DNA of 35,107 bases from Fidelibacterota bacterium (lineage in GTDB: Bacteria > Fidelibacterota > Marinisomatia > Marinisomatales > Marinisomataceae). Shown in pieces: positions 10,001-14,046 of this stretch. The stretch is from NCBI GenBank assembly GCA_014240005.1, contig JAAZXT010000050.1, positions 1 to 35,107 on the forward strand, written 5' to 3'. A program made the position numbers and the translations under genes. How positions within the stretch are numbered: position 1 is the first letter of the stretch; the number at the start of each line of letters is the position of its first letter. The notes under the pieces were generated by a model. It was not told the origin of the DNA and searched no databases. It was given only the letters and a program-made list of their open reading frames with translations.

Positions 10001-10315
10001 TTACTCCTTTTCAGTAAAGCTAAACTCTTCGCCAACAGCTACATTCCTTAAACTATCAAGTTCTTCTGAAATGTCTTTATTTGTCTTAACAAGATTTGAT
10101 ATTTCTGATCGATAAGAAAAAACAGATTTTAATGATATAATATACCCTACAATGACACCAATCATTATAAATAGTATAAAAGCTAAATAACCAGGAATAG
10201 AATGTCCATTATCTCTAAAAAAATATATCATAATGGGCTCACTATTTTTATCAAATAGCAAAAAAGTTCCAGCTAAGATACTTAATACAAATAATACTCT
10301 TAATACTCTAAACAT
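10001..10315 (-). CDS. LapA-domain (DUF1049-like) small membrane protein
   Basis: Two TM helices plus a coiled tail; FDKNSEPIMIYFF...IPGYLAFILFIMIGVIVGYIISL pattern. ATG overlaps the miaB stop (TAATG). Confidence 0.65.
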   Translation of the reverse strand: MFRVLRVLFVLSILAGTFLLFDKNSEPIMIYFFRDNGHSIPGYLAFILFIMIGVIVGYIISLKSVFSYRSEISNLVKTNKDISEELDSLRNVAVGEEFSFTEKE

Positions 10316-11652
10316 TATGCTCCTGTTATCTCTTTTCCACGTAAAATGACTCCAGTAGCCTCTGTAATTTCTACTGGAATGATATCCTTAATTTTACTAT
10401 GATTTTTTTCTACAATCACCCATTCATTTGAATCAGTTCTTCCCGCCCAATGGTTTATCGATTTTTTACTCTCTTTCTCTATTAAAACTTGTTCAAAATT
10501 TCCAATCTTTTTCATATTTAGCTCAAGAGTATGCTTCCTTTGTAGATTAATCATCTCATTTAATCTATCTTTCTTAACTTGTTCTGAAATTTGATCTGAA
10601 AATTGTTCTGCTCTTGTATAAGGTCTTGGAGAGTATTTGAAGGTAAATGCTATATTAAATTTAATTTTTTCCATTAAATCTAATGTTTCTCTAAACTGTT
10701 CATCAGTCTCTCCCGGAAATCCTACAATAATATCTGTAGATAAACCACAATTAGGCATAATCTCTCTTATTTTCTCAGCCATATAATAAAAATGCTCTCT
10801 TGTATATGTTCTATTCATGCGTTTTAACAATTCATTTGATCCTGACTGCATTGGAAAATGAACATAATTACAAATATTATCTCTGGAAGCCATAACTTCT
10901 AATAATTCTACATTAATATCTTGTGGATGAGGCGATGTATATCTAATTCTTTTAACACCAGGAATATCAGATATTGTTAATAATAAATCAGCAAATGATT
11001 TTTTTTCATGTTTATAGGAATTTACATTTTGTCCCAATAATGTAATCTCAACATAACCTTGATCTACTGCTTTTTTTACTTCAGTAACAATACTATCAAC
11101 ACTTCTGCTTCTTTCTCTACCTCTAGTAAAAGGTACAATACAAAAAGAGCAAAACTTATCACAACCTCTCATAATAGAGACCCATGCATTGAATGTGTCT
11201 CCCCTGCTTGGGAACATATCTTCATATACTTCATATCTTGATAACTTAGTATCAACAATACTCTTTTTTTCTATTAGATGTCTATTCATTAACTTAGGAA
11301 TATTTCTATAAGAATCGGGGCCTAAAATAATATCAACATATGGTTTATTCTTCAATAAATCATCTTTCAAGTTTTGAGCCATACAACCAAGAACTCCAAT
11401 GATTAAATGTGGATTTTCTTGCTTTATCTTACGGAGATTTCCTAAACGTGAATGCACTTTAACTTCAGCATTCTCCCTTATAGCACAAGTATTAAGAAAG
11501 ATAGCATCTGCATCATACAAATCTTGTGTTTTTTCTAAACCTAAATCTACTAATATACCTTCAACAAGTTCAGAATCAGCTGTATTCATTTGACAGCCAT
11601 AAGTTTCAAGGACAAACCGTTTTATAGGGCTATTTTTTATTTTTGTCGTCAT
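10315..11652 (-). CDS. miaB: tRNA-2-methylthio-N6-dimethylallyladenosine synthase
   Basis: ETYGCQMNTADSE N-terminal cluster site, radical-SAM CDKFCSFCIVPFTRGRERSR, C-terminal TRAM-like segment. Confidence 0.97.
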   Translation of the reverse strand: MTTKIKNSPIKRFVLETYGCQMNTADSELVEGILVDLGLEKTQDLYDADAIFLNTCAIRENAEVKVHSRLGNLRKIKQENPHLIIGVLGCMAQNLKDDLLKNKPYVDIILGPDSYRNIPKLMNRHLIEKKSIVDTKLSRYEVYEDMFPSRGDTFNAWVSIMRGCDKFCSFCIVPFTRGRERSRSVDSIVTEVKKAVDQGYVEITLLGQNVNSYKHEKKSFADLLLTISDIPGVKRIRYTSPHPQDINVELLEVMASRDNICNYVHFPMQSGSNELLKRMNRTYTREHFYYMAEKIREIMPNCGLSTDIIVGFPGETDEQFRETLDLMEKIKFNIAFTFKYSPRPYTRAEQFSDQISEQVKKDRLNEMINLQRKHTLELNMKKIGNFEQVLIEKESKKSINHWAGRTDSNEWVIVEKNHSKIKDIIPVEITEATGVILRGKEITGA

Positions 11653-11673
11653 AAATCTTTAATTTTTTATTTG

Positions 11674-11691
11674 TTGGGTAATGTTGGGTAA
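11674..11691 (+). repeat. TTGGGTAA x2 direct (cluster A)
   Basis: ttgttgggtaatgttgggtaa; copies at 11674-11681 and 11684-11691. Confidence 0.9.
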
Positions 11692-11785
11692 AATTACAAC
11701 CCTACCAAACTTGTGTATGTATATGAATGATTATAGGTCCCCACACAATAAAATACAATGATTTATAGAATTATCTGATATGGTA

Positions 11786-11831
11786 TTTACCCAACAAGAT
11801 TTTTGAAAAGTTGGGTAAAATTCTTACCCAA
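11786..11831. repeat. TTACCCAA / TTGGGTAA / TTACCCAA inverted cluster (cluster B)
   Basis: Perfect 10-bp inverted repeat TTTACCCAAC(11786-11795)...GTTGGGTAAA(11810-11819), followed by a second perfect 8-bp pair TTGGGTAA(11811-11818)-aattc-TTACCCAA(11824-11831). Confidence 0.9.
11811..11831 (-). terminator. Possible hairpin terminator of the cargo gene
   Basis: On the minus strand, 3 nt after the lipoprotein gene stop: TTGGGTAA-GAATT-TTACCCAA then CTTTTC. The stem is short and the T-run weak. Confidence 0.35.
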
Positions 11832-11834
11832 TGA

Positions 11835-13880
11835 TTAAAAGGTTAGATTCCCTTGACTAGTGATTTTATTAATTATACCCTTATTAGAGCCTTCGAGTCT
11901 CCTTTCAACTTTATCGCTATTAGGTATACCATAGTTATAATAAGAATCTTGAACATTAAAAAAGATTAAATTATCATTAGAGTCTTTAACAATAGAGTTA
12001 GTATAGCCACTAGTATTTTGTATATTCATCCTAGTCGAGAATAAACTATTTCCATTCTCATCCAACTTATAAAATTTATACCTAGAATCATTAGAATTGT
12101 CATTTCCTATAATAATAAAGCCATCTTCTGTTTGTATAATTTTTCTTGGGTTAGAAATAGGATATACATTGTAAAAATATGATATCATTTTAAAGTTTTC
12201 ATCAAATCTTATAATTTTAGAATCTTGAAATAATATAAATCCATAACTGGTTTTAAAAATACCATTATCAGTACCATTATTCTGTGAATTCGAATCATAT
12301 TGAATGGTATTTACTAAACTACCATTTAGATCTCTTACAATAATGTTATTATTTCCATCGTCATCGAAGTTATTGCTATATAGGTTATCATTATGTACTA
12401 AAACATCTTCAGAATCAATATTATTAACTATATCAAAGTTTGAATCTAAAACAAAATCAGAAAACAAAAAATTTCCATTTGAAAGTTCTAATAAATTACG
12501 TCTTAAAACGGAGTAATTTCCACTATATTGGGTTGTACTGTAATCTAAAGATATCGATGTAAAGTCATCATTAACTAAATCATATGTTGATGAAATTCTA
12601 TGAAAGAATAGATTGCCCCTAGTTTGATCTGAGAAATCTTCAGTAGCAGAAACTAATATTATTTCTCCAGAATCTAATTCTAAAATATCTAATATTATTG
12701 AAGGATTAACACTTAATCCTTCAATAAAATTTCTTGAAATAATTTCTTTAGAAATTGGATCTATTTCAACTACTATTGGAGCTATATAGCTATGTACATA
12801 ATTAACGCCGCTATCACTAGATTTATCAATATTTAATCCCGCAGAAGCCATTAAATAATTTCCATTATTAAGTATTGTTCCAACTGCACTGAAACCATTT
12901 GGAAAATGATTAATTTCTTTGCCTATGACGTTTTTAAATAAATTAAACTGAAGGTTATTATATCCTTCAGAAATATCTAAGAATACTGAACCGGGAGAAC
13001 TATAGTCCGTCCCATCATATGCTTGAAAAGTAAATAAATCTGCACCGACAGAAAGAGGAGAGAAGTACGCAGTGTCATTGGATACTGTAACTGTTCCATT
13101 CGATGGAAAGTCTACAATCTCAAATGATACTGAATAACTATCCACATCCGATGCGTTCAACTTAATCGGTTTTACTTCACCTATCGTTGCCTCTACATCA
13201 TATATATCATTCACATTGGGAGGATCATTGAGTGCATTCACTACAATGGTTCCATTCCCAGATCTTATAATAGATCGTCCTGAACTATCATATACAGAAA
13301 ACTTAAAAGTATCGACTCCATACCAATTAGATGACGGAACATAGGTTGCAATATTTCCACTTAACGATAACGTTCCATTAGAGACTTGTTCATCAATTTG
13401 AAACACAATGGTATCCCCATCATATTCATTTGCCTGCAATGTAATATCGATAGAATTATCTTCATTAGTACTTACAGAAACATCAATAGACTCTGGGTCA
13501 TCATTCACTGGATTAATGGTAATCTGAACCGATCCTTGATTACTGGATTTAGAACCATTGGATGCAAAATAAGTAAACGTATCACTTCCGTTAAAATTAT
13601 TATTTGGTGTATAAGTACCTGCATTTCCACTTAAAGAAAAAGTTCCGTTTGTTGGTTGAGATGCAATCGTAAATGTAAGTGGGAGATTTGCAGGATCAGC
13701 TCCTTCTAAATTAATTACAGAAGGGACATCTTCGTTTGTAGTGAGTAAAATGTCTTCAACAACAGGTGCACTTGGTTCAGTAGGTCCGGTTGGTTCAGTA
13801 GGAGTATTACCTCCGCCACCTCCACCACCGCAAGTCCATATAAATAAGACACTGAGAGTTATAAGAAATTCTTTTTTCAT
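11835..13880 (-). CDS. Surface lipoprotein with about three tandem cadherin/Ig-like repeats and a C-terminal propeller-like region
   Basis: MKKEFLITLSVLFIWTCGGGGGGG (lipoprotein-like signal and Gly linker). Repeats end in ...NGTFSLSGNAGTYTPNNNFNGSDTFTYFASNG..., ...NGTLSLSGNIATYVPSSNWYGVDTFKFSVYD... and ...NGTVTVSNDTAYFSPLSVGADLFTFQAYDG.... ORF extends to a GTG at 13883; ATG at 13880 preferred. Confidence 0.8.
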   Translation of the reverse strand: MKKEFLITLSVLFIWTCGGGGGGGNTPTEPTGPTEPSAPVVEDILLTTNEDVPSVINLEGADPANLPLTFTIASQPTNGTFSLSGNAGTYTPNNNFNGSDTFTYFASNGSKSSNQGSVQITINPVNDDPESIDVSVSTNEDNSIDITLQANEYDGDTIVFQIDEQVSNGTLSLSGNIATYVPSSNWYGVDTFKFSVYDSSGRSIIRSGNGTIVVNALNDPPNVNDIYDVEATIGEVKPIKLNASDVDSYSVSFEIVDFPSNGTVTVSNDTAYFSPLSVGADLFTFQAYDGTDYSSPGSVFLDISEGYNNLQFNLFKNVIGKEINHFPNGFSAVGTILNNGNYLMASAGLNIDKSSDSGVNYVHSYIAPIVVEIDPISKEIISRNFIEGLSVNPSIILDILELDSGEIILVSATEDFSDQTRGNLFFHRISSTYDLVNDDFTSISLDYSTTQYSGNYSVLRRNLLELSNGNFLFSDFVLDSNFDIVNNIDSEDVLVHNDNLYSNNFDDDGNNNIIVRDLNGSLVNTIQYDSNSQNNGTDNGIFKTSYGFILFQDSKIIRFDENFKMISYFYNVYPISNPRKIIQTEDGFIIIGNDNSNDSRYKFYKLDENGNSLFSTRMNIQNTSGYTNSIVKDSNDNLIFFNVQDSYYNYGIPNSDKVERRLEGSNKGIINKITSQGNLTF

Positions 13881-13943
13881 CACTTTAGATTAATTTAACC
13901 CGAAGTGATCCTAATAGTAAATATAAAAAAGTAAGACTCGTTG

Positions 13944-13963
13944 TTGGGTAAAGTGTTGGGTAA
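13944..13963 (+). repeat. TTGGGTAA x2 direct (cluster C)
   Basis: ttgttgggtaaagtgttgggtaa; copies at 13944-13951 and 13956-13963, same orientation as cluster A. Confidence 0.9.
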
Positions 13964-13995: not shown

Positions 13996-14046
13996 TTAAC
14001 AGACATATGTCTCAAGGACAAATTTTTTGATAGGAAGGGGTTGCAT
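13996..14046 (-). pseudogene. miaB 5'-end remnant (16 codons then stop)
   Basis: Reverse strand ATG CAA CCC CTT CCT ATC AAA AAA TTT GTC CTT GAG ACA TAT GTC TGT TAA = MQPLPIKKFVLETYVC*. Intact miaB has ...SPIKRFVLETYGCQMN. The ATG directly abuts the M23 peptidase stop codon (TAAATG). Confidence 0.8.

Follow-up and report, generated by a model that had tools for sequence, protein, structure and literature searches.

An eight-base repeat beside a single-gene insertion in miaB: putative integrase arm-type sites of an element that has no integrase of its own

In 20 relatives of the genus studied here, a gene for an M23 peptidase and miaB are adjacent, and in 60 further upstream regions from the order the two genes lie almost always within about 110 bp of each other. 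In the window (the whole stretch of 35,107 nucleotides from a Fidelibacterota contig that was analysed), a lipoprotein gene separates them, and copies of the 8-mer TTGGGTAA/TTACCCAA crowd the DNA on both sides of it. How did this gene enter the locus, and what is the role of the repeats?

The first-pass annotation listed seven copies of the 8-mer and placed them only in the non-coding flanks of the inserted gene. All seven are present (plus strand at 11674, 11684, 11811, 13944, and 13956; minus strand at 11787 and 11824), and none is in the cargo ORF. The non-coding DNA around the cargo measures 345 nt, slightly more than the roughly 300 nt first given. The claim that this number is far beyond chance holds: the window has nine copies compared to 1.1 expected from shuffles, 0 of 100 shuffles reached nine, and the Poisson chance of seven copies in 2.29 kb at the genome-wide density is approximately 4e-12. 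A copy in murB (19190) had been noticed as the sole other one; there is one more in a 643-aa ORF (25774). The whole genome (812 kb) has 35 copies, and the 28 outside the locus compare with 32 for a reversed-motif control, which is background level. The doubled motif was found only at the insert locus among 24 genomes of the genus (the host and 23 congeners). Cluster A is TTGTTGGGTAATGTTGGGTAA, with a 10-bp period, and cluster C is TTGTTGGGTAAAGTGTTGGGTAA, with a 12-bp period. The first two copies of cluster B form a 10-bp inverted repeat (11786-11795 and 11810-11819) directly after the cargo stop codon, and the cluster B fold has a free energy of -15.7 kcal/mol (z -2.4); it may also form a hairpin at the 3' end of the cargo transcript.

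The nearest relative, G002, has an empty site and 96-98% DNA identity over the flanks. Alignment with this site places the crossover in an 11-bp core, TTTGTCCTTGA, that is common to both junctions and lies in miaB codons 13-16 (Table 1). At attR, miaB is native from the core onward, with element sequence upstream of the core. At attL, the sequence left of the core agrees with the sister empty site at 39 of 40 positions, and the sequence right of it at 22 of 49. The two cores are 2,406 bp apart, and attP and attB are alike at 13 of 20 positions right of the core. The integration is thus precise and of recent date: attL and attR with a common core flank the insert, and relatives have an empty attB, as in elements inserted by tyrosine recombinases. 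The rebuilt miaB starts with MTTKIKNSPIKR and continues in frame with FVLETYGC. The new 5' end has no homology to the native one except a miaB-like CCCTATAAAA stretch, and MiaB is 97% identical to its G002 counterpart from residue 7 on. When the order was surveyed for miaB as an insertion hot spot, 0 of the 60 upstream regions had an integrase or an arm pair. In one congener (G007:C2:30384-31687; L025 and L026), miaB is split between two frames that overlap, one covering residues 9-83 and the other 75-443, reflecting a frameshift or an assembly error.

Table 1. Features of the miaB insertion and their positions in the window.
Feature	Position	Strand	Remarks
miaB, target gene, intact 445-aa ORF	10315..11652	-	UPF0004, Radical_SAM, and TRAM domains
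attR core TTTGTCCTTGA, inside miaB, codons for FVLE	11606..11616	-	G002 junction alignment
Element-supplied new miaB 5' end, 12 codons, MTTKIKNSPIKR	11617..11652	-	Reading frame kept
Cluster A, proposed arm-type pair TTACCCAACATTACCCAACA	11672..11691	-	55 bp from attR core
Cluster B, three copies, inverted-direct-inverted	11786..11831	.	Further proposed arm-type sites
Cargo lipoprotein, Big_9 and cadherin-like domains, 682 aa	11835..13883	-	Pfam
Cluster C, proposed arm-type pair TTACCCAACACTTTACCCAACA	13942..13963	-	48 bp from attL core
Displaced native miaB 5' stub with attL	13996..14046	-	16-codon ORF MQPLPIKKFVLETYVC*, ended by a stop in element sequence
attL core TTTGTCCTTGA	14012..14022	-	Native sequence up to and through the core, then changes

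Lambda-type tyrosine integrases use an attP plan with arm-type sites on both sides of the core. When the ends of the insert are joined, one TTACCCAA pair lies 55 bp from the core and the other 48 bp from it on the opposite side, so that the A and C pairs are almost symmetric about the core; the three copies of cluster B lie beyond the first pair. These distances, taken from the recombined core, replace the 36-44 bp of the first-pass annotation, which had correctly placed A and C just inside the miaB-like repeats. The empty site in the sister genome identifies those repeats as attL and attR, which supports its suggestion of recombinase or accessory-protein sites at the element ends. By their position on both core flanks in attP, and by the link of the same word to integrases elsewhere, the repeats are likely to serve an integrase as arm-type sites within an element bounded by att sites, whether that element is still mobile or not.

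Three independent sets of observations support this attP plan, from viral contigs, from Sf6/KplE1-type phages, and from a genome of the same phylum. In IMG/VR, tandem copies of TTGGGTAA were compared by period. With an 11-bp period, 9 of 15 loci had a tyrosine integrase within 300 bp, compared to 0 of 108 with other periods (p about 4e-10, or 3e-7 after near-duplicate removal). In the full scan, the 11-bp form was near an integrase at 20 of 61 loci (12 of 46 clusters), while the reversed motif was at 2 of 55 loci (1 of 25 clusters; p 0.018). Integrases were detected with a home-made profile, so these counts are approximate; of ten members checked, Pfam assigned nine to Phage_integrase, and L447 had no Pfam match. 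The integrases beside the pairs span several families, with Arm-DNA-bind_3, Arm-DNA-bind_4, SAM_3, or SAM_5 domains. In the related phages L058, L064, L149, and L168, int is followed after 18 bp by the pair and then by a single copy 186 bp on, and another integrase locus (L115) has a mixed-orientation array resembling cluster B. The periods in the window (10 for A, 12 for C) differ from the enriched phage period of 11, and the 12-bp form scored 0 of 37 in IMG/VR; period 10 also occurs in the upstream pair of L058 and in a case from the same phylum described below. In a set of near-identical phages represented by L320:13589-13607, the control word AATGGGTT is itself paired at 11 bp, about 302 bp from an integrase. 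The reversed word may be an arm site in its own right, in which case the control would be conservative. Literature searches on the motif letters returned nothing relevant.

L066 encodes an integrase that shares about 62% identity with Int of Sf6 and CUS-3. In Sf6 and CUS-3, the region between the tRNA core and int contains GGGTAAA...TTTTACCC...TTTTTACCC, and in the phages L066 and L126 the same region contains exact TTGGGTAA pairs. According to the published account of KplE1 IntS, its P' arm sites are in the tRNA core-int region and all contain TAAA (PMC2951348). The motif copies may correspond to these P' sites. The insert is like the IntS attL of KplE1, Sf6, and CUS-3, with its P' arm-type sites, in having near the core a putative arm-type region of GGGTAAA/TTTACCC copies in direct and inverted orientation, and near relatives have exact TTGGGTAA pairs there; unlike them, the miaB insert has neither a tRNA target (argW in those phages) nor int beside the sites. 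Because copies fill the tRNA core-int region in Sf6/KplE1-type phages, perfect TTGGGTAA may be the general consensus of this arm-site class. Copies of TTGGGTAA/TTTACCC between the tRNA core and int were recorded at L066:156-203, L126:1131-1177, L614:127-177, and L615:142-192. The recombinase-site idea of the first-pass annotation is thus strengthened by a paired word that accompanies tyrosine integrases elsewhere and that, in phages of the Sf6 type, fills the region of the IntS arm sites.

A similar arrangement occurs in the same phylum, where on contig C119 of G202 TTACCCAATATTACCCAATA stands between a tRNA-Arg(CCG) gene and an integrase gene. The element in this tRNA gene (L509, G202:C119:1-6000) also has, by eye, genes for a DnaB-like helicase, a DNA methyltransferase, and an excisionase-like protein, and it looks like a prophage or satellite. 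Several relatives of the G202 integrase are beside tRNA genes, none with TTGGGTAA nearby, and TTGGGTAA was likewise not found near a small sample of unrelated phage integrases. Because of these absences, TTGGGTAA is regarded as one of several arm words, which some integrases use and others do not. The non-Xer integrases of the genus have no arm pairs nearby.

Islands and prophages in dusA supply a new 5' end for their target gene, and their imperfect direct repeats are attL and attR (Farrugia et al., 2015, PMC4482086). The miaB insert is like them in targeting the 5' end of a tRNA-modification gene, in restoring the target ORF with its own 5' end, and in leaving the native stub at its far end. 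Unlike dusA islands, which carry a specific integrase, it is in miaB, has one cargo gene, and has neither the dusA target nor a dusA-type integrase. Other tRNA-modification targets listed in that study are thdF/mnmE, the MiaB-like rimO, and rluA, and miaB itself is not in the list (PMC4482086). The present locus would add miaB to the tRNA-modification genes that serve as docking sites.

Cis-mobilizable elements (CIMEs), described for streptococcal ICEs, are bounded by attL and attR and have no recombination genes. No integrase was found in the insert, where the lipoprotein gene is the sole ORF, and this fits the att-bounded CIME definition; an integrase of its own would be expected in autonomous elements only. 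As in CIMEs, attL and attR are kept, the recombination module is absent, and only cargo is present. Unlike CIMEs, the insert has a single gene, resides in a streamlined 0.81-Mb genome, and lacks, among the sequences covered here, a related ICE or IME that shares its att sites. Tycheposons and small phage satellites of marine bacteria (e.g., PICMIs) are also small cargo elements reliant on helpers; they carry recombinase or replication genes, while the miaB insert has neither.

Searches for a helper and for sister copies covered the host genome, 245 genomes, and IMG/VR. No second copy of the element was found in the host genome or the 245 genomes, and the first-pass annotation's expectation of more copies around other cargo genes in the genome was not borne out. 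The element ends gave only AT-rich matches of 21-35 bp in the 245 genomes, at loci without the 8-mer, and the best of these was in an unrelated coding sequence. The search of IMG/VR for a miaB attP yielded no phage or island that has one; two candidate matches in a tail-type protein gene were attributed to chance. A mobilizing ICE, IME, or phage that shares these att sites was not found in IMG/VR or the 245 genomes, and neither a circular form nor a miaB-targeting integrase was seen in the data examined. The only tyrosine recombinases found in the host genome are two Xer-like proteins of about 305 aa, in an assembly that is 93.5% complete, so its missing part could hold an integrase. The cargo gene has no relatives in IMG/VR. 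Its base composition and GC3 (0.186, the same as miaB) match its neighbors, which suggests that the donor was probably a related genome.

The end repeats resemble docking sites of a phage-type integrase that was not found in the assembled genome, so the insert is probably a very small mobile cassette that depends on a helper for its movement. Our preferred reading, held with some reserve, is that of a 2.4-kb CIME-like integrative cassette without its own integrase, moved in trans and replacing the 5' end of its target in the manner of dusA islands. A tyrosine recombinase supplied in trans by a phage, prophage, or helper island would join the circular attP to the miaB attB within TTTGTCCTTGA. 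Its N-terminal domain would bind the TTACCCAA pairs, and probably cluster B too, as arm-type sites, while its catalytic domain would bind the core, and the circle would go into miaB codons 13-16. The miaB-like end of the cassette would then renew the miaB start codon and frame, so that the host would keep MiaB while gaining a surface lipoprotein. The precise insertion, the att repeats, the restored frame, the integrase-free insert, and the association of the word with integrases elsewhere are directly established; integrase binding, action in trans, excision, and the function of the cargo are what we infer from them.

The chief rival has the same att anatomy and differs from the trans-mobilized cassette only in present mobility: a prophage or island that once had its own integrase would have lost all but one gene and the att ends, and would now be fixed, with the repeats still being arm sites. 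The streamlined genome and its two Xer-like integrases agree with such a remnant, and occurrence in one genome fits both readings alike. The insertion took place after the host and its 97%-identical sister had separated, however, which leaves little time for deletion; no phage or island gene fragments are left, and the codon and base composition of the cargo match the genome. We therefore consider a remnant rather unlikely. An origin of the insert by illegitimate or homologous recombination between a foreign segment and a diverged miaB start, with TTACCCAA as a functionless local repeat expansion, could have used the 11-bp core as microhomology. It is very improbable given that the likeness of the element ends to miaB extends past the core with the frame kept, that the pairs are symmetric, and that the same word is beside integrases in unrelated genomes. 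An insertion sequence or transposon was rejected on the basis that the insert has no transposase ORF and its end repeats are direct, not inverted.

Other readings concern the repeats themselves. The TTACCCAA boxes could bind a transcription regulator of the lipoprotein gene and miaB and be unrelated to integration, which was the alternative offered by the first-pass annotation. Cluster A is upstream of miaB and cluster C upstream of the cargo gene, direct repeats of 10 to 12 bp suit a regulator dimer, and arm sites can double as operators, as described for KplE1 IntS (PMC2951348). This alternative is weakened, and in our judgment improbable, because elsewhere in the genome the 8-mer is no more frequent than background and so is not a genome-wide regulatory box; the copies track the insert and not miaB, and no second paired site was found in the genome or genus. 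A regulon box enriched upstream of several genes was rejected on the same counts. An integron-type gene cassette with cluster B as a short hairpin would explain one ORF with a hairpin after it. The attC core consensus is RYYYAAC/GTTRRRY, and ACCCAAC and GTTGGGT fit it. The crossover, however, took place at a distance of 48-55 bp from them, in TTTGTCCTTGA; this core contains no GTT, where an integron would have recombined at the G/TT of GTTRRRY. The arms of cluster B are 14 nt apart, too short for known attC, the A and C copies are in tandem direct orientation, and the tyrosine recombinases found are Xer-like, which makes an integron cassette scarcely credible.

If the cassette reading is correct, even a very small genome can acquire a surface protein through a clean insertion that spares the target gene and brings no recombinase of its own. 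The TTGGGTAA pair, spaced by approximately one helical turn, is linked both to several integrase families and to the region of the IntS arm sites. It could reveal att sites, and cassettes without an integrase, that escape island finders based on integrase genes. As a more speculative and, in our view, doubtful extension, streamlined bacteria of this group might swap single surface-protein genes as integrase-free att cassettes that dock in the miaB 5' end and rebuild its start, moved in trans by integrases sharing a TTGGGTAA arm code across distant families; such a system would be integron-like in effect and built from phage att sites.

The cargo lipoproteins are a fast-varying surface-protein family. 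The Pfam matches of the cargo protein are to Big_9 (E 3.6e-29) and Cadherin_4 (E 4.6e-20). No allelic copy was found in the nearest relatives, and what the rest of the genus has are paralogues, most of them no more than 46% identical. Congeners at L505, L506, L507, and L508 have one or more of these paralogues, with an N-terminal half about 35-46% identical to the cargo protein and without TTGGGTAA pairs. In G022, G017, and G023, two or more paralogues are close together, and some of those in G023 contain stops.
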